Source: a virus. Taken from it: a DNA stretch of 64,000 nucleotides. Of this stretch, positions 1,635-28,316 are shown in pieces. Both the position numbers and the translations under genes were made by a program. The notes below the pieces were generated by a model. It was not told the origin of the DNA. It did not search any database and worked only from the letters and a program-made list of their open reading frames with translations. Positions within the stretch are counted from its first letter, which is position 1; each line of letters starts with the position of its first letter. The stretch lies in the IMG/VR virus record IMGVR_UViG_3300010885_057925, positions 1 through 64,000 of that record. One strand, written 5' to 3'.

Positions 1635-4600
1635 TCACATAACCTTGATTTTCTTACCTTTTGTCGCCAGCCCGAAGTCAGAACGATCGACCTCGGCAAC
1701 GCATAGGGTGTATGGCTCGAATCCAATCTTACCATCCCAATCCCACATGAACATCTTTTCCATATTTCCGGCCTCACCCATCACCTGAAGCATCAGGTAC
1801 GGTTTTCCGTTCTTCGTCTTCTTCTCGACCGAGCTCACAACGACAAACCAGTAGACGTCAAGTCTCTCCCAGTTATCAATCGAGTAAACCTCCTTGTCCT
1901 TGAACTTCTGACGAAGCTCTGGAGAGATCAGGGAGAGAGGCTCCATCTTTCCAGAGAGCTCAATCTGCATCAGAGCGTGCTCTCGACGGGTCCACTCTGG
2001 CATGCCCTCAGTCTCAACAACAAGTTCGCGGAACTTCTTGATACCACGCTGGGGATCTTTCTTCGCCCACTTCTTGATATCGTCAGCGTTCTCGATGAGA
2101 ACGTGATGCATATGCTTCCAAGAAGAGAACTGCTTGTCCCGCCCGACGACGTCCATCGACTCGAAAGCGCCCGCCTTGATGAGAGCCTCCAGGGCTCGAC
2201 GGTTAAACTTAGAGGGCCTCCACTGCCCGTCCTCCTTCCATAGCATCTGCTCAACGCTCTGGTACGGTCGACAAGTCACAATCTCCTCAATCGCAGTCTC
2301 ACCGACTCCCTTGATCGTGTTGAACGAAGGGATGAGCAGCTTACGTCCCGAGTCAACGGACCACTGGTTCGTGGAGAGGTTGATGTCGACGTTGCCAATC
2401 TCGTAACCCATCTTCTTCACGTCAGAGATTGCCTGGGAACGATCATCTGGATTACCGATCATCGACTCCATGTAAGCGCAGAGCCACTCGGCCTCGAAGT
2501 AGGTCAGGAGCCAAGCGCAGTAGAACGAATCGATGGCGTAGGCGAGAGCGTGGGAGAGGTTGAAACCGTATCCTGCGAAGAAGAGGATATCATCCCAGAG
2601 CTTCGAGGCTACGGATTCCCTGATGCCATTGCCCACAGCTCCGTTGACAAAGTTATCCTTCATCGCCTTCGCCTTCTTCATCGACTCCTCAGGGTTGCCT
2701 CCCTGGCGCTTCAGAATGTTCTTTCGAACTTTGTCACACTCGGACTTCGGGAATCCCGCCACCACGTTGCAGAGCTGCATCAGCTGCTCCTGGAAGATGA
2801 TGCATCCGAAAGTCGGCTCGAGAACCTGCTTAATGAGCGGGTGCTTGTAGTCGATATTCCGAGGGTTCGCCTTCGCCTCGAGGTAGAGTTTGTCAACCTT
2901 CGCAGCGAGCGGACCGGGACGGAAAACTGAGGTCAGGGTCGCGATGTCGATGATCGATCGTGGCTTCGCGTTCTGGAAGAGTCGTTGGGCGCCCTTACTG
3001 GTGAGCTGGAAGACGCCTGGAGTTCTGGAGGTTGCCTCATGGTAGACGTTCTCATACACCCTCTGGTCGTCGAAATTGATCACATCGGTTGCCATGTGTT
3101 GGTCGAACCACGCCTTGACGTCCTGGAACGTAGGATTCTTCATCCCATGGTGGCGCTGGAGGATGAGCTCGATCGTTCGATGGATTGTCCGAAGCGTTTC
3201 GAGGCCCAGCAGGTCGAACTTAACCCATCCCAGCATCTCAAGATGCTTGTAGTTCATACCCTCGACCCAGGGGGTCTGCTGCTCACCCTTCGCCATGATG
3301 AGAGGCATCCGCTCCTGGATGCGCTCAGAGATGATAACACCGCCAGCGTGTCGACCCAGAGCCTTGTTCTGCTTGAACAGGACCTTGATGGATTCCGAGA
3401 CCTGCGGATGACGATCGATGAAGTTTCTGAAAGTCTCGCAGTGTTCGTAGCTGTCCTCGAAAGTTAGGACAAAGAGGTTCTTATCGTCGCCAATCTTCTT
3501 CGTCGCGTTCATGACCTCCTTCTCGACTGTCTTTAGAGCCTCGTTGACCTCCTCGAGTGGGATATCGTAGAGACGGGAGACGTCCCGGATGAGTGTCTTG
3601 AGCTTGAAAGTATTGTAGTTCGAGATTGGAACGATGTTCTCACCGCCGAACTTCTCACGAAGGATCGAGAGGAGCAGGTCGCGGTTCTCAACGTCGGTGT
3701 CGATGTCGGGCAGACCCTCACGGTCAGGGGACAGGAATCGTTCGAAGAGCAGACCGTACTTGATCGGATCAACGTCGGTGATGCCGAGGACGTAGCAGAC
3801 AAGGGAGCCCGCGCCGGAGCCTCGACCCACGCCGACGAACATCTGCTCCTTAGCGGCAGAGATGATCTCCTTCATCGTGAGGAAGTAAGACGCGAAATCC
3901 TTCTGCTTGATGACATCGAGCTCGTACTTCGCGCGGTCAACATACTCAGGATTCGTGTGGAAATTCTTGGAACGAAGACCGATCTCTACCGACTCCTCGA
4001 GAGCCTCATTCGCAGTCTTACCCTTCGGGATGACGTAGCTCGGCAGCTTCACGGAGCGATCGGGCTGGACATCGCCTATTTCCTCATGCGCGAGATGCCA
4101 GGTACGCTCGACCGCCTTACGAACAAGCTCCTCCTCACCACGATAGAAATCATCGGTGCCTCGGGAAATCATGAACTCATCCCAAACCTGGGAGGCGTTC
4201 TTCGGGTATAGCTCACACTTGAGCTGGTCCTTGCTCTTCGGGATCGAGTCTGCCGACAGATCGGCGTAGTTCAACCAGCCGAGCTTCTTGTAGATCTCGC
4301 GCTCCTTCCAGTGCTCCGGACGGGCGTAGTGGGAGTCGCAGGTAACGACGAGCTGATCGGTCATGCCCTGACGCTTCGCGAACTCCATGATCGCACGGTT
4401 GACGATGTGCTGAGCAGGAAGGCGGTTGAACTGCAGCTCGAGCATCACGTTCTTACGGCCGACAGCCCATGCGAGACCATCGAATGAGTTACCGACGCGG
4501 TTGATGACGCGCTCCATGATCGATTGATCATTGAGGAGACGACTGTTTAGCGTCTCGAAGCTGTGCTCCTGCAGCTCACGGAAGACCTCGAAAGCGAGTG

Positions 4601-5258
4601 GGCCGCCGATGCAGGCCGTCGAGACGATGAAGTTGTCATCCTCCTGAGCCTCCTTGAGCATCGCGAGGTCAACACGAGGGAACTTGTAGAAGCCCTCGGA
4701 GTAACCACGACTCACGAGTCCGAAGAGCTTCTCGAGCCCCTTACTGTGACGTGGTAGAACAACGAGGTGGTGACGACGGTTGATCGGGTTGAAGTGCTTC
4801 GTTGACTTCGTCTCGTCCTCGTTCTCGATCGTGAGAGCGGAAGCGTCGGTGTCGATGCCGATCGTCTCATCATTCTCATCGGTGACAGCGACGATCGGAG
4901 TCACGATGCTCTCGGGCTTCTCCTTCGCCTTCGCGTGGCTCTTACGATCACGCTTGAGCTGCTGCCACTCATGGTACTCAGCCCGCCAAGCGTTGAGGTC
5001 GGGGTGGATGTACATCTCACAGCCCGGGATGAGTTTGATGTCCTTCCCTGCCTTCCTCAGCTTGTCAGCGTGGAGCCAGGCGTGACCGAAGCCGTTCATC
5101 TGGCCGTGGTCAGTCAGACTCCACCCATCGAGACCGTTCTCAAGGCAGAAGTCAATGTGCTCCTGAGGGTAACCGAGACCATCGAACGTGCTGAAACCCG
5201 AGTGAGAATGAAGTCCAAAGAACTTCTCTGGACGCTTGAACTCGCCGCCGTCTGCCAT
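1635..5258 (-). CDS. dnaE: DNA polymerase III alpha subunit (family C, DnaE-like)
   Basis: The protein has 1207 residues, normal for DnaE. Residues 13-51 form the start of a PHP domain (HSHSG at 17-21, TDHG at 49-52). The polymerase core shows VGRGSGAGSLV near 477, LLFERFLSP near 503 and PDIDTD with D518 and D520 aligned to the catalytic aspartates of E. coli DnaE. A third acidic residue, D683, sits in WVKFDLLGL. GRHAGGV near 636 is also conserved. The C-terminus (about 1120-1207) looks like an OB fold. It is the likely replicative polymerase and works with the RecA, helicase and ssDNA-binding protein genes. No 3'-5' exonuclease domain is visible, and no beta-clamp gene was seen here. A TGGAG ribosome site precedes ATG 5258. 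A family C enzyme in a T4-like virion background is uncommon. Confidence 0.95.
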   Translation of the reverse strand: MADGGEFKRPEKFFGLHSHSGFSTFDGLGYPQEHIDFCLENGLDGWSLTDHGQMNGFGHAWLHADKLRKAGKDIKLIPGCEMYIHPDLNAWRAEYHEWQQLKRDRKSHAKAKEKPESIVTPIVAVTDENDETIGIDTDASALTIENEDETKSTKHFNPINRRHHLVVLPRHSKGLEKLFGLVSRGYSEGFYKFPRVDLAMLKEAQEDDNFIVSTACIGGPLAFEVFRELQEHSFETLNSRLLNDQSIMERVINRVGNSFDGLAWAVGRKNVMLELQFNRLPAQHIVNRAIMEFAKRQGMTDQLVVTCDSHYARPEHWKEREIYKKLGWLNYADLSADSIPKSKDQLKCELYPKNASQVWDEFMISRGTDDFYRGEEELVRKAVERTWHLAHEEIGDVQPDRSVKLPSYVIPKGKTANEALEESVEIGLRSKNFHTNPEYVDRAKYELDVIKQKDFASYFLTMKEIISAAKEQMFVGVGRGSGAGSLVCYVLGITDVDPIKYGLLFERFLSPDREGLPDIDTDVENRDLLLSILREKFGGENIVPISNYNTFKLKTLIRDVSRLYDIPLEEVNEALKTVEKEVMNATKKIGDDKNLFVLTFEDSYEHCETFRNFIDRHPQVSESIKVLFKQNKALGRHAGGVIISERIQERMPLIMAKGEQQTPWVEGMNYKHLEMLGWVKFDLLGLETLRTIHRTIELILQRHHGMKNPTFQDVKAWFDQHMATDVINFDDQRVYENVYHEATSRTPGVFQLTSKGAQRLFQNAKPRSIIDIATLTSVFRPGPLAAKVDKLYLEAKANPRNIDYKHPLIKQVLEPTFGCIIFQEQLMQLCNVVAGFPKSECDKVRKNILKRQGGNPEESMKKAKAMKDNFVNGAVGNGIRESVASKLWDDILFFAGYGFNLSHALAYAIDSFYCAWLLTYFEAEWLCAYMESMIGNPDDRSQAISDVKKMGYEIGNVDINLSTNQWSVDSGRKLLIPSFNTIKGVGETAIEEIVTCRPYQSVEQMLWKEDGQWRPSKFNRRALEALIKAGAFESMDVVGRDKQFSSWKHMHHVLIENADDIKKWAKKDPQRGIKKFRELVVETEGMPEWTRREHALMQIELSGKMEPLSLISPELRQKFKDKEVYSIDNWERLDVYWFVVVSSVEKKTKNGKPYLMLQVMGEAGNMEKMFMWDWDGKIGFEPYTLCVAEVDRSDFGLATKGKKIKVM

Positions 5259-19349: not shown

Positions 19350-22300
19350 TCACTTGCATTTCGAATACCCGCACGACTTGCAGGAAAGACATCCTTCCTG
19401 ATAGACGAGCTCGGGATTGCCACACTCTGGGCACCCCTTTTCGCTTGACTTGGTACCATCCTTGATGTATCCCTTGAGGACCCGAGCGATCACCCGGGCA
19501 TATGAAAACATATCACTATTCTTATCCTTTTGCAACTGCTCCACAACATAATGAAGCGGAACTTCATGCCGCAGGGCGAGCGAGATAGTTCTCGTGAACG
19601 CGCCCTGCGTCGGATTGTCGAAAAGATTCACGATGTCCTTGAAAACGAGATTATCGTCCTCTCCGACTGGAACAAGCAGGTTGTAGGTTGCGACTCCGTC
19701 GCGCTTTCCATTCTTTACGAGCGTTCCCGATTTGTATTTCTTCGGAATCTCGATATTCTCTGGAATTCCGCAGAAAACCTCGTAAGGCTTTCCTTCGTTC
19801 AGGCCGATGAGGACGAGCCAAGATTCTGGAGTATCGCCGTTCCTGATATTGACCCTGTGGATATCACTGGGGAGCGACTTCGGGCGCTTCGGTACCAGAC
19901 GCCCGTCGTCAGCCTTCTTACTCTCCTTCTTCGGTTCATCAGCAGCTACAAGAACGCCCGCCCGACAGCCGTCGCGATAGACGGTGAATCCCTTGCACCC
20001 CGTCTTCCAGGCCTTCATGTAGACATCGTTGACCGTTTCGCGTGTTGCTGTGTTCGGCAGGTTACAGGTCTTGGAGATCGAGTGATCGATCCATTTCTGG
20101 GCAGCAGCCTGAATCTCAACAGACTTGGACCAATCGATGTCGTTCGCAGTTCCACCCCAGTAAGGACTCTCCCGTGGATCCGACTTTCCGGTGACATCCA
20201 TCCACTTTTTGAACCAGTGATGATAGACCGTATACTCCTGCCACTTGTCACCCAAGGGATCGACGTAGTCCTCTCTGGAAGTAAGATCACCCTGTGTTAT
20301 CTTACGACGACGCTTGTAGGAGAGCATGAACGCAGGCTCGATGCCAGACGTCGTACGGGTGAGGCAAGAGACTGAACCCACTGGCGCCGTGGTTGTGAGA
20401 GCGATGTTACGACGCCCCGTAGTCTTCCACATGTCGAGAGCATCATGATGGAGAGCGCTGGTAGCCCCCATGACTCCCTTCAGGTACTCGTGATCCTTCT
20501 CCTTCTCATAGTCCCAGACTGGGAACGCACCACGTTCCCGTGCCATCACAAGGGAGGAGTAGTGAGAGTACTTCGCGAGCCAACTGTAGATCACCTCGGT
20601 CATGTGAATCGAATTGTCAGATCCGTACTTGAGCCCAAGAGCTGCGAGAGCATCTCCAAGACCTGTGATACCGAGACCGGTCCGACGACCGTTAAGCCCG
20701 GCGGCTCGAATCTTGTTCCAGAGATCACGCTCGATCCGCTTCACGTGATCGGGCTGAGGATCACTCTCGATCTTCTCCAAAATGCGATCAACACATTCGA
20801 CCTCAAGATCGACGAGATCGTCCATGAGACGCTGGGCTGAGTAAACCGTCACACCGAATTCAGTGAAATCAAACTCTGCGTTCTCGGTGAACGGGTCCTT
20901 CACGAAAGACGTCAGGTTGACGACCATCAAGCGGCAGCTATCGTACGGACTGAGAGGGATTTCTCCGCAGTTCTTCACGCAAATGCCAGAAGACTCAACG
21001 AACCGCTCATCCTCGCCGGAAGTGATGACGAAGTAGTTGTGGTTGTCGTCCACAGTGATATTGAAGACATCCTCGTGTCCCACGGACTCAACAGACACAA
21101 CCTTGTGGTTGTTGATCACAGCACTCTTGAAGTTGCTGAACCTGCCAAACCTAAAGTCGTTGGCGAGGTGGAGGGGCGCACCGACATCCCTTGCGTGATC
21201 GATCCACGCCTTTCTCGTGAGCTGGCCCTGCTGATCAAAGATGCGCCGTCCCATCTCGATCAGCTGTTCGTTCGTGAATCCGCTGTACCTGCCATTCTGC
21301 TCTCCCGGATGGGAGGCGAACTTCTCCTGCCACTCTGCGTCCATGCGATGGTACGGATTGTTGGATCCCCGCATCTTGACAGCATGGAGCTCGCGGTGCT
21401 CATCGTGCGTCATGACAGTCAGGTTGTCGATGCTGTCATTCAAGCAATCGAAGTCAGCGTGATGAATGGCGTGTGTCTTGGCGTCCACGCTGCCCCTCAG
21501 GAACTCGTGGATCAGGCGGTACTGGCGCCTGTTCCTAAAACCCTCACCCTGGAGCTTCTCACCTGTGTTGCAGACCTGTCGGTACCCGTTCGAGTTGAAG
21601 GAGTTGAAGGGGACAATGCTATCTCCGGGCTGCAGATCGCACAGATTTCTGTAAGTCAGGTCCTTCAGGAGGATCTTGTGATCCGGCGTTGCCCTCAGTG
21701 TCGATCCGTCATCGAGTGTGAGCTTCCAGATCTCCTTCTTCTCTCCCGTGAGTCGAGGGTTCCTGCCCATCTTGACGACCGTCTTTCCTGACTGGAGGTC
21801 GACCGAGTAGACCGGAACATCTCTCCCCTCAGCAGCGAGCTGAGCGATCGAGACCGCGTTCCTACCGTCGGCAACAGCGATCAGGGCGTCGCCCGTGATA
21901 CACGGATTGGTGCTGATGGTCTTGTAGCCCAGGTCCTGGTAACGATCCACGATGCCGTTGTCGATAACCGTGTCCCAGAAGAGCGCACCTGGCTCCGCCG
22001 AGGCCCACGCGGCGTCGATAAACTTGTCCCAGACATGCTTCGCGTTAACGACCTTCGTGATCTGAGCCGAATCTGCCGGCTCCTCGACGGGCCAACGCAA
22101 TGTGAATTCGCTACCGCTCTCAACAGCCCGCATAAACTCATCGGTGAATCGGATGCTAATGTTAGCTCCCGTCACCTTTTTGAGGTCACGCTTTATATCG
22201 ATGAATGTCTCAATCTCGGGATGACGGCAATCGATCGTGAGCATGAGCGCGCCACGACGACCGCCCTGGGCAACCTCACGACAGGAGTTAGAGAAGCGCT

Positions 22301-22784
22301 CCATGAAGACGCCGATACCGTCTGTCGTACGCGCTGCGTTCGAGGTCGGTTGTCCCTTCGGACGGATGGTGGAGATATCGAATCCCACACCACCGCGTCG
22401 TTTCATGATCTGGACCTGCTCCTGATCCGAGAAAAGAATACCGCCATACGAATCGTTGGGCTGCTCGATGACAAAGCAGTTGGATAACGACTGCAGCTGG
22501 TATGGATTACCAATACCTGACATTGGAGATCCCTGCGGCACGATGTACTTGAAGTCACGTAACAGGCTGTAGATGCTCTCCTCATCCATCGGATTCGGGT
22601 ACTTTCTCTCGATCCTAGCAAATTCGCGAGCAAGACGACGATGCATCATGTCGGGGTCCGCCTCGAGCAGATTGTCGTCAGCGTCACGAAGCGCGTACTT
22701 CATGAAAACGTCTGGTGCCAACTCGTCATTCTCAAAGTAAGCATTAGTACGCTCACGAACTTCATTCTTGGTGTAAGACATCAT
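19350..22784 (-). CDS. nrdJ: Class II (B12-dependent) ribonucleotide reductase NrdJ with intein
   Basis: The 1144-residue precursor contains a 311-residue intein (residues 295-605); the spliced enzyme would be 833 residues. The extein has SNCFVI near 101, RRGGVGFDIST near 130, NPC/GEIPLSPYDSC at the intein junction and TTAPVGSVSCLTRTTSGIEP. The C-terminal cysteine cluster is CPECGN then CKSCGYSKC. Class II enzymes reduce ribonucleotides using adenosylcobalamin and need no oxygen or second subunit. The intein splits the NPCGE motif exactly before the cysteine that becomes the thiyl radical, so the unspliced precursor should be inactive. The gene lies six bases after the helicase and supplies dNTPs for it. 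Starts MMSY at 22784. Confidence 0.95.
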   Translation of the reverse strand: MMSYTKNEVRERTNAYFENDELAPDVFMKYALRDADDNLLEADPDMMHRRLAREFARIERKYPNPMDEESIYSLLRDFKYIVPQGSPMSGIGNPYQLQSLSNCFVIEQPNDSYGGILFSDQEQVQIMKRRGGVGFDISTIRPKGQPTSNAARTTDGIGVFMERFSNSCREVAQGGRRGALMLTIDCRHPEIETFIDIKRDLKKVTGANISIRFTDEFMRAVESGSEFTLRWPVEEPADSAQITKVVNAKHVWDKFIDAAWASAEPGALFWDTVIDNGIVDRYQDLGYKTISTNPCITGDALIAVADGRNAVSIAQLAAEGRDVPVYSVDLQSGKTVVKMGRNPRLTGEKKEIWKLTLDDGSTLRATPDHKILLKDLTYRNLCDLQPGDSIVPFNSFNSNGYRQVCNTGEKLQGEGFRNRRQYRLIHEFLRGSVDAKTHAIHHADFDCLNDSIDNLTVMTHDEHRELHAVKMRGSNNPYHRMDAEWQEKFASHPGEQNGRYSGFTNEQLIEMGRRIFDQQGQLTRKAWIDHARDVGAPLHLANDFRFGRFSNFKSAVINNHKVVSVESVGHEDVFNITVDDNHNYFVITSGEDERFVESSGICVKNCGEIPLSPYDSCRLMVVNLTSFVKDPFTENAEFDFTEFGVTVYSAQRLMDDLVDLEVECVDRILEKIESDPQPDHVKRIERDLWNKIRAAGLNGRRTGLGITGLGDALAALGLKYGSDNSIHMTEVIYSWLAKYSHYSSLVMARERGAFPVWDYEKEKDHEYLKGVMGATSALHHDALDMWKTTGRRNIALTTTAPVGSVSCLTRTTSGIEPAFMLSYKRRRKITQGDLTSREDYVDPLGDKWQEYTVYHHWFKKWMDVTGKSDPRESPYWGGTANDIDWSKSVEIQAAAQKWIDHSISKTCNLPNTATRETVNDVYMKAWKTGCKGFTVYRDGCRAGVLVAADEPKKESKKADDGRLVPKRPKSLPSDIHRVNIRNGDTPESWLVLIGLNEGKPYEVFCGIPENIEIPKKYKSGTLVKNGKRDGVATYNLLVPVGEDDNLVFKDIVNLFDNPTQGAFTRTISLALRHEVPLHYVVEQLQKDKNSDMFSYARVIARVLKGYIKDGTKSSEKGCPECGNPELVYQEGCLSCKSCGYSKCK
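20970..21902 (-). mobile_element. Intein with HNH homing endonuclease in nrdJ
   Basis: The intein runs from Cys295 (CITGDALIAV, block A) to Asn605 (HNYFVITSGEDE then SGICVKN, blocks F and G). It is followed by extein Cys606. Block B is seen as LRATPDHKIL. The inserted endonuclease has HHADFDCLNDSIDNL and HDEHRELHA, an HNH-type active site. Cys1, the terminal Asn and Cys+1 are all present, so splicing should be possible. The penultimate residue is Lys rather than His, which occurs in some inteins and may slow Asn cyclisation. The element is in frame and uninterrupted, so I read it as active rather than decayed. Confidence 0.93.
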
Positions 22785-22790
22785 TTCTCC

Positions 22791-24182
22791 CTATTTGCTG
22801 CCTGTCACTTCTTGCCATTTCTTACGCAAAAGCTTTTTTGCGTCGTTTCCGTCTTGAGTCATAGATTCCTGTAAAGTCAAGCTATTCTCGTCAAGAATCT
22901 TAATCCTAGATTGCGATGTATCGATGTGAATAGGAAAAAGAATCCCATCTCGACCAGCTCGGTTTTTCGCCACGAAAAGCCGACCCGAACCATCAGCTTT
23001 TTCGCTGGGTTTTCTCGAGATCGACACGACAACGTCTGCTACCATCGCCTTTCCGTATGCCTCACTCATGTTCTCGAGGCCGACAACCTCTGCTCCCGAC
23101 GCCTCACGATTCGCCTGCGAAGCAGTCCAGATGGGAATGTTGAGCTCCATGGCAAGGTTTCTAAGCTCTTCGTATACAAGCTTCAGCTCGTGACGAAGGG
23201 AGTCGAAAGTCCTCGAGGATCTCATGATGTCGGCGTAGTCAATGATGATCAGACTCGGTACAAATCCCTTCAGATTAAGCTTCTCGATATGATTTCTAAG
23301 CATCTGAACCGTTGCTGTGCCGGTTGGGTACTCCTTGATGATCAGGCGCCCGAGATCCATCGTCTCGTAATTCTTTAGAATCTCTTCCTTCATGTCAGGA
23401 ACATCGTTCGATGGGACCCCGCAGAGGTTAGAGTCGTACCGCAGGCCAACTGCTGTCTCGGTGAGCTCAAAAGTGTAGTGAACGACATTTTTGCCCATCT
23501 TGAGAGCATGCGCTCCCATCGCTGTCAACCAGTGACTCTTGCCAACACCCGTCGGAGCGACGACGACTCCGAGCTCTCCTCGACCGAGACCACCCCGGAG
23601 GATGTCCTTACCATCGAGAACGTCTAGTCCGGTGGGACATGGGTTGCGGTTAATCTTGACAAATCGAGCCTCGGCGTCCTCAAAGAAGTCGTGACCCGTG
23701 CTATTCGCCATGCCGACAGAGACTGCTTTCTTCATCAGATCTACGACGGACTCGAACTTGTCGGTTGCCACCATCTCGACTGCCTTCTCAAGAGCCTCAC
23801 GGAAAGCCTGCCGCTTGCAGAAATCGAGAGACTTCTCCTTCACGTAGCCGAGATCTCCCGGGTCAGGGTTGGCCCGCATGCGGTGAAGGAAGTCGATGAT
23901 CTGATCCTTCAGAATAGCGTCAGGACCCTGCTGCAGATCCTCCTTGATAATCGACACCAGAAGCTGCATCGTTGGGAAGCACTTGAACTTCTCGAAGTGC
24001 TTGAAATATCGATCGGTCAGGAAGGCAAGGTACTTCAGGTCGAAGTAGTCTGGCCGCATTACCTCAACCATCTGCGCTGCCCAGATATGATCCGTCAGCA
24101 AGCTCTGGAAGATTTTTTCTTGAAACGACTTGCCGTACTGGCGAAACAGAGCTTCGCCTGCGTTGATTTCGTTCTGAGTCAT
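22791..24182 (-). CDS. Replicative DNA helicase (DnaB/gp41 type)
   Basis: This 463-residue RecA-fold helicase has Walker A VAPTGVGKSH at 208-217, a Walker B-like strand SLIIIDYADIM near 315 and the arginine-finger region RLFVAKNRAGRDG near 410. The order fits the SF4 replicative helicase family, which unwinds DNA 5'-3' as a hexamer at the fork. The N-terminal 150 residues are helical, as in DnaB-type N-domains. No primase domain is fused. The C-terminus ends with a lysine-rich helix. The gene sits between the exonuclease (nine bases upstream) and nrdJ (six bases downstream), giving a tight replication operon. Confidence 0.92.
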   Translation of the reverse strand: MTQNEINAGEALFRQYGKSFQEKIFQSLLTDHIWAAQMVEVMRPDYFDLKYLAFLTDRYFKHFEKFKCFPTMQLLVSIIKEDLQQGPDAILKDQIIDFLHRMRANPDPGDLGYVKEKSLDFCKRQAFREALEKAVEMVATDKFESVVDLMKKAVSVGMANSTGHDFFEDAEARFVKINRNPCPTGLDVLDGKDILRGGLGRGELGVVVAPTGVGKSHWLTAMGAHALKMGKNVVHYTFELTETAVGLRYDSNLCGVPSNDVPDMKEEILKNYETMDLGRLIIKEYPTGTATVQMLRNHIEKLNLKGFVPSLIIIDYADIMRSSRTFDSLRHELKLVYEELRNLAMELNIPIWTASQANREASGAEVVGLENMSEAYGKAMVADVVVSISRKPSEKADGSGRLFVAKNRAGRDGILFPIHIDTSQSRIKILDENSLTLQESMTQDGNDAKKLLRKKWQEVTGSK

Positions 24183-24190
24183 GAGCTCTC

Positions 24191-25078
24191 TTAAGTATGA
24201 AGAAGGTGACTTGTCAGTTGGAAGAAAACTCGCTCTCGATCGAAATTGTTTATTCCGGACCTGACGAGTAACCTGAGATATTCCATCTTATTGGCCTCTG
24301 GCCTAAATGATTCGAGTCCAGATTCGATTTTTCCGACTTGATTTCCCGAGAGGGAAGAGACATCGAGGTTCATAAGCTGCCAGTTGAGCCGCGCTTCGTC
24401 CGCACCTTCCACTATGCTTCGGAGCAGCTGTGGACCCTTCGGGGTGACCCGCGCGGCAGCCATGTTGACAATGTCATCCGGACTGAGCAAAGCCTCTCCA
24501 GCGACCTCCGGGAAGCGTTTAGCCATGGTCTTCCATCCAGCTCCTTCGATACCCGGAATTCCGTCCGCACCGTCACCGACAAAGCATCGAGTCGACACGA
24601 AGTTCCTCGCTGTGCACCCGAAGCGGGTCAGAACGTCAGGTTCGTTAACGAAAGACTTCGAAGTTGGGCTCCAGATCCTCACACGACCGTCGAGAAGCTG
24701 GTAGTAGTCCTTGTCGGACGACATGATGACACAAGGATCGTCCTTTAAGCGGTAGCGGGCAACGTAAGCGATGACGTCGTCAGCCTCACAGTCGGTGACG
24801 TAGCTCTGCTGGACAGGTAAAAGCTTCAGAATCTGAACAAGAGTCGCAACCTGCCAGTTCCTGTTTCCCACAGTGTCGGGAATATCGCCCTCGTAGTACC
24901 TGTTGAGCTTTTGGGGCTTCCGTTTCGTCTTGTACTCGGAGAAAAGTGCCCGACGTCTGGGAGAGCCACCGCCCTCCCAGACAACGATGACCCGTCGTGG
25001 GCTCAGAAACTCACATTTCTGCCCAAGCTCGTTCAGAAAACCCACAATTCCACCGACAGCCTGCCCGTTGGCACCCAA
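24191..25078 (-). CDS. 5'-3' exonuclease / flap endonuclease, N-terminus interrupted
   Basis: The open frame starts at a TTG (25078) with no ribosome site, but conserved sequence continues upstream: NCFTRHFCANPTLGANG directly precedes it in frame, and before that lies a TAG at 25120-25118. The body has VIVVWEGGGSPRRRA, SEYKTKRKPQKLNR, DCEADDVIAYV, SSDKDYYQLL and GDGADGIPGIEGAGWKTM. This is the motif order of the PIN-like/FEN family, including the helix-three-turn helix. The first metal-binding Asp (in LLIDG) lies beyond the stop, so the truncated product should be inactive. The family removes RNA primers and flaps. See the separate entry for 25079-25186. Confidence 0.85.
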   Translation of the reverse strand: MGANGQAVGGIVGFLNELGQKCEFLSPRRVIVVWEGGGSPRRRALFSEYKTKRKPQKLNRYYEGDIPDTVGNRNWQVATLVQILKLLPVQQSYVTDCEADDVIAYVARYRLKDDPCVIMSSDKDYYQLLDGRVRIWSPTSKSFVNEPDVLTRFGCTARNFVSTRCFVGDGADGIPGIEGAGWKTMAKRFPEVAGEALLSPDDIVNMAAARVTPKGPQLLRSIVEGADEARLNWQLMNLDVSSLSGNQVGKIESGLESFRPEANKMEYLRLLVRSGINNFDRERVFFQLTSHLLHT

Positions 25079-25186
25079 CGTGGGGTTCGCGCAGAAATGT
25101 CGCGTAAAACAGTTGAGCTAAAGACCGTCAATTAGGAGTGTTGGTCTCCCACTGACGGTCTTCTCCTTTAAAGTTAGAGATTGCAT
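25079..25186 (-). other. Displaced exonuclease start: in-frame amber with possible ribosome bypass
   Basis: In the exonuclease frame the minus strand encodes, from ATG 25186, a 22-codon leader ending TLLIDGL, then TAG (25120-25118), then L-N-C-F-T-R-H-F. Related exonucleases read LLIDGLN at this place, so exactly two codons (six bases) are extra. The codon before the stop is CTT and the codon after it is CTC, both Leu. A hop from CTT to CTC would restore the family sequence. A hairpin with perfect ten-base arms AAGACCGTCA/TGACGGTCTT (25121-25130 and 25153-25162) ends exactly on the CTT codon. AAGGA lies ten bases before ATG 25186. The region overlaps the C-terminus of the homing endonuclease gene. 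Confidence 0.6.
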
Positions 25187-26138
25187 TTTCTATCGTTCCT
25201 TGAAAGTTTTCGGTTAGGTTCTTCTGCCAGATACAACAAAAACTATAACCTGATTGGATCGCGAGTTCAGCTTTCATTCTGTCTCTCGACCGAATCTCTG
25301 CAGCACGAACGTCTCGACGCTCATCGTAATGATTCTCAGAATACAGCTCAGGATTGAAGTGCCAGTAATCTCCGTTAATCTCTATCATCAGATTTAATTC
25401 TTCAACGAAGATGTCATACACTCGATTCTTAATTCGATGTGAATGCTTACAAGTGAATCTTTCACTCAAGTAATCAAATACGTCTTTTTCGATTTGGCTT
25501 CTCCACAGCCCGTTTCCGCGGTCAAACGCGCCGTCCTCCCACATCCTGCGAGTTCTTTCAGAAATTTTTTCGCGAACTACCTCACTGTGGTTTCGCCCTT
25601 TCATCCAGCAAGTTCCACCGTTCTTAAAGAATCGAAGCTTGGCTTGCTTCATTTTCTGCTTTGTTTCTTCTGACATCTTGAATCTTCTACCTGTCATTTT
25701 TTGAGAGAATTTTTCGTAGATGCCGTTTCTTATCTTAGTTTCTTTAGCTTTCGCAGCGCCCGCAATCAACGATTCCTTAGTTCGCAGCGGCCCAACTTCT
25801 TCGATCCTCTTCTTTAGAGACTCAGATATCTTCTTCTTAGTCTCTTGTGTATGACGAACCCCAACATGACTCGCTGCAATTTTTTTCTTTCGTTCCTCGG
25901 GCATGGGGCCATGCTTTCGCCCTTTATTGACTTTAACGCTAGCGATGTTTCTTCTATTCATCGCGGTTTTCCACGCTACCTCAGAGTATTTTTCCTCTCC
26001 AAGCTCGTGCTTCAACATTTTGATAGTTTTATTTCTCCCGAATCCCCATAAAGCTCTGACTTCATCGATCGTTGAGCCATTCAAAAACGCCGCTACACCA
26101 ACTTCAACGCTTTCAGACAAGCTAGCCTCCATGAACAC
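25128..26138 (-). CDS. Homing endonuclease with NUMOD3-like repeats and Vsr/EDxHD-type nuclease domain
   Basis: This 336-residue free-standing gene lies between recA and the exonuclease gene. Residues 75-190 contain basic repeats (PEERKKKIAASHVGVRH, MSEETKQKMKQAKLRFF, HSEVVREKISERTRRMW) of the NUMOD3 DNA-binding type. The C-terminal domain has IEKDVFDYL, RVYDIFVEELNLMIEINGDYWH, NHYDERRD and SGYSFCCIWQ. This resembles the Vsr-like fold of EDxHD homing endonucleases such as I-Bth0305I. The DNA is visibly more AT-rich than its neighbours, a sign of recent arrival. Start is GTG 26138 or ATG 26132. Its last codons run into the displaced exonuclease start. Confidence 0.88.
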   Translation of the reverse strand: MFMEASLSESVEVGVAAFLNGSTIDEVRALWGFGRNKTIKMLKHELGEEKYSEVAWKTAMNRRNIASVKVNKGRKHGPMPEERKKKIAASHVGVRHTQETKKKISESLKKRIEEVGPLRTKESLIAGAAKAKETKIRNGIYEKFSQKMTGRRFKMSEETKQKMKQAKLRFFKNGGTCWMKGRNHSEVVREKISERTRRMWEDGAFDRGNGLWRSQIEKDVFDYLSERFTCKHSHRIKNRVYDIFVEELNLMIEINGDYWHFNPELYSENHYDERRDVRAAEIRSRDRMKAELAIQSGYSFCCIWQKNLTENFQGTIENAISNFKGEDRQWETNTPN

Positions 26139-26178
26139 GATTAAATATTCACGGAGGTTAGCGCTGAATTAACTTATT

Positions 26179-27381
26179 TCAACTTTCCGGATCGATGTCG
26201 GCACCAACCATCTGGTCACGAAAAGCTCTCATCTCCTCGTAGGACTCAGGATCGATGTCAAGGTCATTCGCGCTCACGGTGGTACGGATGAGAGCTTTCT
26301 CCAGGAGCCCATCGATCCACGGCTTGTACTGGGGATCCTTCCACAGGTCACCGAAATCAGCCTTGTAGAACTTCTTCTCGAGGATATTCTCGTTCCTTTC
26401 GTTGGTTACCTTGATCGTCTTCCACGCGCTGGTGCCCTCGACCGAAACCTGATGGTCGTTAATCATGTCGGGACCATGTTCACGAAGAACGTCAAAGACT
26501 TCCTCATGTTCCTCGATGCCCTTGCCGAAGATGATCCTGAACTCGACCTTTCGGAAGGGCGGAGCGACCTTGTTCTTGATCGTTTTTGCCCAGACGTTAA
26601 TACCGATCGCCTCACCCTGCTTATTCTCGATGTGGGAACCAGCTCCGAGCTTGAGACGAACCGAGGCGTGGAACGGGATCGCCATACCGCCGGGGGTCGT
26701 CGTGGGGTCACCATGCATCACGCCGATCTTCGTGCGGATCTGGTTAAGGATGACGAAGAGGACGTTCTGATCTCCGATGACACCAGTGATCTTTCGCATG
26801 CCCTTCGAGATCGCGCGCGCCTGAAGGCCGATGGTATCCTTGTCGTAAGCACCCTCAAGCTCAGCTTTCGGTGAGGATGCTGCCACTGAGTCCCAGATGA
26901 TCGTGATCGGGACGTCCTTTGCCATCGCTTTCGCCTTCAGGATCGTCTTCTCAGCGATATCAAGCACCTCCTCGGTGCAGTGAGTATCAACATAGACAAA
27001 CCGCTTGCTCACATCGACCCCCAACGCCGCCAGGTTCTCAACCGAGGTGCCGTTCTCGGTATCGATGTAGACTACGATGCCGCCCATCGACTGGGTCGAT
27101 CGGGCGATCTGGGTCGCGATGTGAGACTTTCCGATCGACGGAGGCCCAAAGATCTCCACGATTCGCCCCTCCGGGAGTCCACCCTTCGCTCGATTTGAAA
27201 CGACGAGATCAAGCTGCTTGGATCCGCTGGAGATCCAGCGCTTTACGTGGGTCGGTGACGTATCAACAGCTAGATTGTATGCGATTCGAGAGCCGTGATC
27301 CTTATTAAGGGACGAGATGAGCTCACTGGTAAAATCATCAGCAGCAGTCTTCGCTGCTGCCGTAGTATCCTTCTTTGCCAT
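26179..27381 (-). CDS. recA: RecA recombinase
   Basis: The 400-residue protein has Walker A GPPSIGKS at 79-86, VVYIDTENG near 103, Walker B ITIIWDSVAA near 157 and the DNA-binding loop 2 region LNQIRTKIGVMHGDPTTTPGG. The C-terminus is acidic (GADIDPES). RecA forms filaments on ssDNA and drives strand exchange. In a phage of this size it supports recombination-dependent replication with the adjacent ssDNA-binding protein. The sequence is closer to bacterial RecA than to T4 UvsX in motif wording. The frame is intact with no intron or intein, although an EDxHD-type homing endonuclease lies 40 bases downstream. Confidence 0.95.
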   Translation of the reverse strand: MAKKDTTAAAKTAADDFTSELISSLNKDHGSRIAYNLAVDTSPTHVKRWISSGSKQLDLVVSNRAKGGLPEGRIVEIFGPPSIGKSHIATQIARSTQSMGGIVVYIDTENGTSVENLAALGVDVSKRFVYVDTHCTEEVLDIAEKTILKAKAMAKDVPITIIWDSVAASSPKAELEGAYDKDTIGLQARAISKGMRKITGVIGDQNVLFVILNQIRTKIGVMHGDPTTTPGGMAIPFHASVRLKLGAGSHIENKQGEAIGINVWAKTIKNKVAPPFRKVEFRIIFGKGIEEHEEVFDVLREHGPDMINDHQVSVEGTSAWKTIKVTNERNENILEKKFYKADFGDLWKDPQYKPWIDGLLEKALIRTTVSANDLDIDPESYEEMRAFRDQMVGADIDPES

Positions 27382-27476: not shown

Positions 27477-28316
27477 TCAGAATCCGCTGTCTTCAAGATC
27501 CGCGAAAGCGTCATCGAGATCACGGGCAGCAGCCTTAGGGCCGGCGCCCGTCTTCTTGCTCGTCTTCGGGAGATCATCGTCATCGAAAGCAGCGAGCTTG
27601 TTGTCAGTCTCGGTACGGGGCGCAGGACCGCCACGAGAGGTACCGGTATCGTTCGAGGTACTACCGCCGTTGATCCAATCGTTCACGATCTTCTCGATCT
27701 CCTCGTAGGACTTGAGGTTGACCGCCTCATCGACCTCCGGAATCGAATCAAGCCACTTCTTCGACTGGGCGGAATCGCGGCTGAGGGGCTCCACCTTGGC
27801 TCGTGGGGAGATCTTGGTGTCAGCGAACTGCTTACCGGGAAGCTTCGAGACCGAAACACGGATGTCGCGGCCCTCGAGCGGATCAGTGACGTCGCCGTAG
27901 TCCTCATCGAGCATGAGATTCAGGATGTCCTGGTAGACCATCTTTCCGAAGGACCAGATTCGGACGCCCTTGTCCTCCTCACCACGTACGATGACCGGAG
28001 CGAAGGTACGCATCTTCGGAGCGACCTTCTTGGCGAGCTCACGGCTCGTGTCGCTGCCCTCATCGTAGAGCTTGCTACGGAGCTCCTTGATGGGATCCGC
28101 CTTGCCGAACTGGAAGGGTGCGAGGATACCCGGGCTGTTACCGACGCCGTAGTAGTACCAGCGATCCTTGAAGGGCTGACCGTCGTTATTCTGGAATGCG
28201 AGGAGTCGAACCGTGTACTCCTTGCCCTCCTCGGGCTTCCACTGCTGGTCACGCTTGTTGTTCTTACCGGAGAGTTCGCCGAGCTTGCGGCGGATTGCGT
28301 CGAGATCGATTGCCAT
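27477..28316 (-). CDS. Single-stranded DNA-binding protein (gp32-like)
   Basis: The 279-residue protein has a basic N-terminus (LDAIRRKLGELSGKNNKRDQQW), a core with aromatic strands (YTVRLLAFQNNDGQPFKDRWYYYGVG, APVIVRGEEDKGVRIWSFG) and a strongly acidic tail (AAFDDDDLP and DLDDAFADLEDSGF). This is the layout of T4 gp32-type proteins: a cooperativity domain, OB-fold core and acidic protein-recruiting tail. No cysteine zinc site is seen in the core. It coats ssDNA during replication and recruits helicase and recombinase. It is followed by a terminator and then recA. The upstream 138 bases (28317-28454) hold no recognisable gene. Confidence 0.85.
   Translation of the reverse strand: MAIDLDAIRRKLGELSGKNNKRDQQWKPEEGKEYTVRLLAFQNNDGQPFKDRWYYYGVGNSPGILAPFQFGKADPIKELRSKLYDEGSDTSRELAKKVAPKMRTFAPVIVRGEEDKGVRIWSFGKMVYQDILNLMLDEDYGDVTDPLEGRDIRVSVSKLPGKQFADTKISPRAKVEPLSRDSAQSKKWLDSIPEVDEAVNLKSYEEIEKIVNDWINGGSTSNDTGTSRGGPAPRTETDNKLAAFDDDDLPKTSKKTGAGPKAAARDLDDAFADLEDSGF

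Follow-up and report, generated by a model that had tools for sequence, protein, structure and literature searches.

A viral 5'-3' exonuclease gene raises the question of how the enzyme could be made from a reading frame in which an in-frame stop codon separates the catalytic Asp from the rest of the protein. The gene lies in a stretch of 64,000 nucleotides (the window; positions 1 to 64,000 of IMG/VR record IMGVR_UViG_3300010885_057925). The rule-called open reading frame (ORF) begins only at TTG 25078, without the first β-strand and the catalytic Asp. The original prediction placed the true start upstream of this ORF, with two extra codons and with the Asp before the stop. The gene bears this out: the frame from ATG 25186 reads MQSLTLKEKTVSGRPTLLIDGL-stop-L-NCFTRHF..., with CTT-TAG-CTC at the junction and two codons more than the exonuclease family. 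Our answer, to which we give a probability of about 85%, is that ribosomes would cross the junction by a programmed +6 in-frame stop-hop of peptidyl-tRNA-Leu.

The locus and the exonuclease reading frame

On the minus strand the genes run from SSB through a UvsX-like recombinase, a homing endonuclease and the 5'-3' exonuclease to a DnaB-like helicase (Table 1). The exonuclease gene is present in a single copy in the 171,517-base virus contig. An AAGGA is likewise found a little 5' of the ATG in the endonuclease-free relatives L025, L027 and L028, and the leader starts at the matching place with ATG in L001-L044, L127, L133 and L138 and with TTG in L121 and L123. Gene finders overlook such genes, the standard ORF beginning 36 codons late and without the catalytic Asp. 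A ribonucleotide reductase-like ORF (1144 residues; 19350-22784, minus strand) contains an apparent intein (CITGDALIAVADGRN ... HNYFVITSGEDERFVESSGICVKNC) with an HNH-like stretch, and thus a second mobile element nearby.

Table 1. Coordinates of the genes and of the junction elements in the window
Feature	Position	Strand	Evidence or remark
SSB gene	27477-28316	-	
UvsX-like recombinase gene, upstream neighbour	26179..27381	-	phrog_97 2.4e-70
Mobile cassette, last uvsX codons to landing codon	25115..26190	-	L001/L005 identity versus flanks
Free-standing homing endonuclease gene, NUMOD3 motif	25128..26138	-	PF07460; PHROG HNH/homing endonuclease families
Shine-Dalgarno-like AAGGA upstream of exonuclease ATG	25197..25201	-	sequence
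5'-3' exonuclease / flap endonuclease gene with leader	24191..25186	-	PF02739 4.1e-21, body alone
Exonuclease leader ORF, 22 codons and TAG	25186-25118	-	
ATG, start codon of exonuclease leader	25184..25186	-	ATG at matching place in relatives
Internal Shine-Dalgarno-like AGGAG, two bases 5' of hairpin	25163..25167	-	in 14/14
Conserved 38-nt hairpin (15 bp, 8-nt loop in family alignment)	25123..25160	-	window version extends to 25121-25162
Take-off codon CTT (Leu)	25121..25123	-	invariant in 14/14 hop genes
Stop codon TAG	25118..25120	-	TGA or TAA in relatives
Landing codon CTC	25115..25117	-	CTA, CTT, CTG in relatives
AAC, where decoding would resume	25114-25112	-	
Exonuclease body	25114-24191	-	
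DnaB-like replicative helicase gene, downstream neighbour	22791..24182	-	phrog_19 1.6e-72

Joined with one Leu, the two parts of the frame give the exact family sequence DGLN and align without gaps to Taq LLVDGHHLAYR and to FenA around the metal-binding Asp. That this Asp of the leader is a metal ligand is established for the family. The PF02739 score is 86.9 bits for the hop product, 81.0 for the readthrough product and 72.5 for a product from the downstream start. A structure model of L009, a relative without the insert (pLDDT 91.7), matches the fold of FenA, T5 FEN, Taq 5' nuclease and T4 RNase H and has the insert site immediately behind the Asp-bearing strand 1, within the first turn of helix 1 (E7-11, H12-22). 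The spacing between this Asp and a conserved Arg is fixed in the family. At the residue level the leader keeps the family's LL(I/V)DGL, with codons that differ between lineages, which indicates that it also codes for protein.

The six-base insert and its hairpin among relatives

A homology search gave 38 relatives, and wider searches gave 219 distinct viral-contig exonucleases with readable 5' ends. The CTT-stop-CTN six-base insert is present in 14 of the 219 (referred to here as hop genes), which represent about seven lineages and have bodies 32-100% identical. None of the other 205 has an insert between the Asp and the Asn, and the motif D-[GAS]-x-[NGS] is unbroken in all of them. The middle codon of the insert site is a stop in 14 of 14, and the base after it is always C. 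The stop and landing codons are TAG-CTC in the window and its counterpart L001 and in L005, TAG-CTA in L025 and L028, TGA-CTA in L027 and L133, TAA-CTT in L031 and L127, TAG-CTG in L042-L044, TAA-CTC in L121 and L123, and TGA-CTC in L138. The close relatives L025 and L027 have nearly identical leaders, yet one has TAG and the other TGA. Selection for a stop codon at the insert position is shown at the level of comparative sequence.

Take-off and landing codons are the same only in L031 and L127 and are synonymous in the other hop genes. Since CTT always precedes the stop and a Leu CTN codon always follows it, a single tRNA-Leu box could both take off and land; the proposal that the same tRNA reads Leu once, giving DGLN, thus gains support from all 14 genes. 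The exonuclease body is in frame 0, and the +1 frame closes after one codon in seven of the 14.

The hop genes L001, L005, L025, L027, L028, L031 and L042-L044 were found by protein homology, free of pattern bias, whereas a gene-blind DNA pattern added L121, L123 and L127, and a looser one L133 and L138. These patterns carried no protein information past the junction bases, and all of the genes that they added proved to be the exonuclease gene. The gene-blind viral search, with a variable gap of 16-45 bases, returned 12 contigs, all with the exonuclease gene and all with a 55-nt span; the looser viral pattern also returned 13 chance contigs without it. A near-identical pattern gave six matches in 257 Gb of bacterial and archaeal genomes (spans 46-69 nt, no exonuclease), which look like chance. 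The insert recurs in 13 further distinct contigs of other metagenomes. The closest isolates (Microcystis phage Mel-JY01, 34% identity; Flavobacterium immuto phages, 27.5%) have the exonuclease annotated as one unbroken CDS, and the 91-bp junction has no significant similarity to GenBank phages.

Alignment of the 14 hop genes needs no gap over the 56 bases that run from AGGAG to AAY, and all 14 have the same 38-base hairpin, its end on or beside the first base of the take-off codon. The original prediction described a perfect ten-base hairpin ending on that codon. The window does contain a perfect 10-bp stem, AAGACCGTCA/TGACGGTCTT (25162-25153 with 25130-25121), which ends on the last base of CTT, but this is only the lower part of a longer, covarying hairpin (MFE -24.1 kcal/mol in the window). 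MFE values range from -16 to -27 kcal/mol in the hop genes, compared with a mean of -7.7 in relatives without the insert. The alignment of the hairpin has 15 pairs, with 90.3% of cells paired and 7 pairs changed on both sides. Covariation is 0.402 versus 0.237 in shuffles (0 of 500 as high) and at most 0.175 in slid registers. The clearest pair, 12-41, is G-C in seven genes and A-U in seven and tracks the wobble base of the Asp codon. The first gene-blind pattern imposed GACY...GGTC on L121, L123 and L127, which makes four pairs in these genes non-independent. The pattern behind L133 and L138 demanded no pairing, and these two have stems of 12-14 bp with G-C replacing A-U at pair 9-44.

Leaders of 19-25 codons differ between lineages apart from LL(I/V)DGL. 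Between L025 and L027, codons at same-residue sites are identical at 22 of 22 positions in the leader versus 141 of 256 (55%) in the body (P = 5e-6), and the same test of L121 against L123 gives 24 of 24 versus 205 of 267 (P = 0.003).

The conservation of AGGAG is unbiased for L001-L044 and imposed by the search pattern for L121, L123, L127, L133 and L138, where the patterns fix the spacing too, so that the spacing is partly imposed there. This part of the leader also encodes the C-terminus of the endonuclease. We infer a role for AGGAG, and it is the weakest step of the proposed mechanism because its conservation is unbiased only in the homology-found lineages and because of this overlap with endonuclease coding. 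The signal is likely to be the 38-nt covarying hairpin with the upstream AGGAG, not the ten-base hairpin alone. An [AG]TY triplet six bases 3' of AGGAG, considered as a non-AUG start, is explained by its pairing with the Asp codon GAY.

Besides the opposite strand of the hairpin, the only other weak match to the covariance model in the record is at 147308-147358 (E = 0.38). It was rejected as a second hop element, being a tRNA-Lys gene whose D arm reads CTTTAGCTCAAC. The hop junction of the window has the identical 12 bases, but those of other lineages do not, so the match is probably coincidence.

The homing endonuclease and the mobile cassette

The endonuclease has a NUMOD3 match only, and no PDB relative was found by sequence. 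It had been predicted to abut the site. It is indeed the neighbour, but it does more than abut, since it runs into the exonuclease leader with its 3' end, in another frame, and terminates at a TGA within the hairpin. Related endonucleases occupy the same place in L005, L042-L044, L127 and L138. A related endonuclease lies directly upstream of 7 of the 14 hop genes, or 8 if the L031 remnant is counted, versus 1 of the 205 others, with a Fisher P of 6e-9 that is only a guide because the rows are related. In L025, L027 and L028 the endonuclease is gone, yet the leader reads NAIS(N/S)FKGED in the endonuclease frame; upstream of these genes, a remnant search gave only marginal nucleotide similarity to the endonuclease gene.

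Comparison of L001, whose exonuclease and endonuclease proteins are 100% identical to those of the window, with L005 delimits a mobile cassette. About 1,070 bases are 99.5% identical (5 differences in 1,060), with flanks that differ by ~15%. The hop element forms the exact right border, the cassette ending directly after the landing codon. In the exonuclease tree L001 goes with L002 (96% identical) and L005 with L009 (98%). L002 and L009, close relatives of the kind with which the original prediction had proposed a comparison, lack both the endonuclease and the six bases, and the insert is thus real. On the same tree the hop label, by a quick method, changes 8 times, at least 6 of them on supported branches.

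The cassette and the distribution among relatives indicate that the hop comes in with the endonuclease and is able to persist after its loss. This would fit what has been proposed for T4 gene 60, a gap that shields the gene from cleavage (PMC5009743). The six bases probably arose as a break in the endonuclease's predicted target at the exonuclease start, which would protect the cassette, and the hop would keep the host exonuclease gene alive despite the cassette.

The sole gene without the insert that has a related endonuclease directly upstream is that of L193. Here the endonuclease, at 2100-2500, is related to that of L138 and frameshifted, and the target Leu codon of the exonuclease has become ACC (Thr), so that DGTN replaces DGLN; this is possibly another escape from cleavage. 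L045 has a related endonuclease (33%) at 3983-4951 near an oppositely oriented exonuclease without the insert (2366-3241). Endonuclease-like sequence, ...(D/N)GDYWHANP..., is found ~570-620 bases upstream of the exonuclease in L092, L206, L279 and L303, which also lack the insert; it precedes the recombinase gene or falls within it. The recombinase gene may thus offer these endonucleases a second target.

Decoding of the insert and comparison with known systems

In the proposed mechanism ribosomes would translate the leader of 19-25 codons, which encodes the first β-strand and the metal-binding Asp, until CUU reaches the P site, with the stop and the following C in the A site and termination slow. 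Bacterial RF2 shifts at the same site, CUU_U before a stop and C; among 32 variants tested ahead of UAG, CUU_U far exceeded the others in efficiency (PMC5009743). The hairpin would refold behind the ribosome, AGGAG at its foot, and pull the mRNA; because it ends at the take-off codon, its pairing would be completed only as the ribosome moves forward. The motor proposed to pull the mRNA in T4 gene 60 is a 5' stem-loop whose pairing is completed once the ribosome has passed (PMC5009743), and stem-loops that form in the wake of the ribosome guide the sliding (PMC11194080). Shine-Dalgarno sequences stimulate +1 shifts at 3 nt (PMC5009743), and in T4 genes 38 and 25 a hairpin can set Shine-Dalgarno spacing (PMC3014915). 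With pairs 9-44 folded out, CUU would lie 3 nt and CUN 9 nt from AGGAG; closing pair 8-45 too would leave 7 unpaired bases before CUN. The peptidyl-tRNA-Leu would then release CUU, the mRNA would slide by six bases and the tRNA would re-pair with CUN. Decoding would resume at AAY to give an unbroken ...LLIDGL-N..., with nine bases read as one Leu. The efficiency of the hop and the roles of the hairpin and of AGGAG are presumed. Artificial stop-hops are not known to be efficient without added signals.

A point against the hop is that the mixed take-off and landing codons need tRNA-Leu GAG (CUU/CUC) or a permissive UAG tRNA (CUU/CUA/CUG), neither of which the phage encodes. The tRNA genes of the record lie in one region (~147050-163250), all on the minus strand, and none reads CTN Leu codons.

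Readthrough, in which a near-cognate tRNA reads the stop, would leave two extra residues (L-X-L) after the catalytic Asp-Gly. It draws on a frame that is open on both sides of the stop, on a product that differs by only two residues and is still recognised by Pfam, and on the constant C after the stop, which weakens termination at UGA (PMC5009743). We nevertheless regard it as unlikely, as it leaves unexplained both the constant Leu CTN (with a free third base) behind the stop and the use of TAG, TGA and TAA with no particular stop conserved. Its insert would also stand where 0 of 205 relatives have one, in the first turn of helix 1 behind the catalytic strand (L009 model), where the Asp-Arg distance is fixed. 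None of the 20 tRNA genes in the 171.5-kb record is a suppressor. The window genes end in TGA (16), TAA (13) and TAG (4), and with all three stops in such ordinary use the code is standard and no stop is reassigned. An RF2-like +1 frameshift fails because the body is in frame 0 and half of the hop genes have a +1 frame that closes at once.

Internal initiation or reinitiation past the stop would yield a separate protein and make the leader a regulatory peptide, the hairpin setting the AGGAG distance as in T4 genes 38 and 25. Hairpin-bridged Shine-Dalgarno sites do exist in T4 (PMC3014915), and here AGGAG would come to lie 7 unpaired bases from CTN with the hairpin folded out. The original prediction had set against a hop the joint presence, in endonuclease-free relatives, of the stop and a conserved downstream start. 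The stop is present in such relatives (L025, L027, L028, L121, L123 and L133), but no conserved start codon was found 3' of the stop in the hop genes, the first in-frame start being 35 codons into the conserved body in L025, L027 and L028 and 23 in L133. The landing codons (CTC, CTA, CTT, CTG) are mostly not start codons, and a product begun there would be missing strand 1 with its metal-binding Asp, although LL(I/V)DGL is kept as in relatives without the insert; initiation past the stop is therefore very improbable. A decayed or mis-sequenced gene, with a killing six-base insertion or an assembly error, would be in keeping with the damage that homing endonuclease insertion can do to hosts and with the errors that metagenome assemblies contain. 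It is already refuted by the sequences of the relatives, with 14 distinct records from many metagenomes, three stops, a covarying hairpin, synonymous conservation and intact downstream frames, and its probability is negligible. Removal of the six bases, or of a larger intron, at the RNA level has in its favour that phage endonucleases often sit in group I introns. Yet a search of 24800-26400 against Rfam, at thresholds up to E = 1, found no match and no group I ribozyme core, uvsX and the endonuclease have no second 5'-exon copy between them, and no six-base intron is known; we give such removal next to no weight. The reading-frame, protein-family and structural evidence favours the +6 hop over readthrough, frameshift and internal initiation. 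Given the three stops used, the constant CTN and a +1 frame closing in half of the genes, the hop is the only reading that would cover every constant feature.

A 2016 review describes stop-hops with synthetic constructs, knows of no natural in-frame occurrence and notes that short natural counterparts have long been presumed (PMC5009743). No later report of a natural in-frame stop-hop was found in the literature covered to August 2026, a coverage outside which many subscription papers fall. We consider it quite probable that the locus would be the first of its sort, a natural, evolutionarily conserved in-frame stop-hop. Its compact 56-nt element (AGGAG, the 38-nt hairpin, CUU, any stop, CUN and AAY) would let bacterial ribosomes pass a stop with neither nascent-peptide signal nor gap hairpin, the hairpin bringing take-off to ~3 nt and landing to 7-9 nt from AGGAG, and would be spread by homing endonucleases as the six bases immunise the target. 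If true, this is a second homing endonuclease tied to translational bypass, and suggests that bypassing is a repeatable route by which selfish DNA enters a host gene without killing it.

What is proposed is programmed bypassing with the logic of T4 gene 60; gap, codons and signals differ, and a comparative data set comes with it. The likeness to gene 60 drawn in the original prediction holds for the stop directly after the take-off codon and, as with mobA, for the adjacent homing endonuclease. It extends to a gap that is probable protection against cleavage, a matched landing codon, a restored family protein and a 5' stem-loop behind the ribosome (PMC5009743, PMC3014915). It does not extend to the gap, which is 6 nt here and 50 in T4, to the codons, Leu CUU/CUN here and GGA in T4, or to the gap stem-loop (A-site) of gene 60, for which six bases leave no room. 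Nor is a counterpart of the KKYK nascent-peptide signal evident; 19-25 divergent residues leave little room for one. The stop-hops in E. coli attributed to Weiss et al. 1987 (cited in PMC5009743) were made with artificial constructs, whereas here natural genes carry conserved candidate stimulators.

With RF2 (prfB) the element shares a CUU_U take-off, a stop followed by C and an internal Shine-Dalgarno sequence, which is 3 nt from the shift site in prfB and 3 nt here only with pairs 9-44 folded out. The move here would be +6 in frame, not +1, a 38-nt hairpin separates AGGAG from CUU, and there is no release-factor autoregulation; the use of TAG, TGA and TAA means that the element is not tied to RF2, unlike prfB. 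The byps of yeast mitochondria (Magnusiomyces capitatus) are likewise short mRNA blocks that are skipped, inserts that do not inactivate genes. They are mitochondrial, number 81 copies and are apparently independent of mRNA context (PMC5009743), in contrast to one gene, one position and conserved cis elements here. In T4 genes 38 and 25 a hairpin likewise shortens the distance from Shine-Dalgarno sequence to P-site codon, but acts in initiation (PMC3014915), whereas here the frame is already under translation.

Among bacteria and phages, T4 gene 60 has been almost the only case of programmed bypassing, and general rules were hard to derive from a system that needs so many signals. It is described as apparently unique to T4 (PMC3014915), whereas the stop-hop element occurs in about seven phage lineages with varied stop, landing codon and hairpin, so that which parts matter can be read from evolution.
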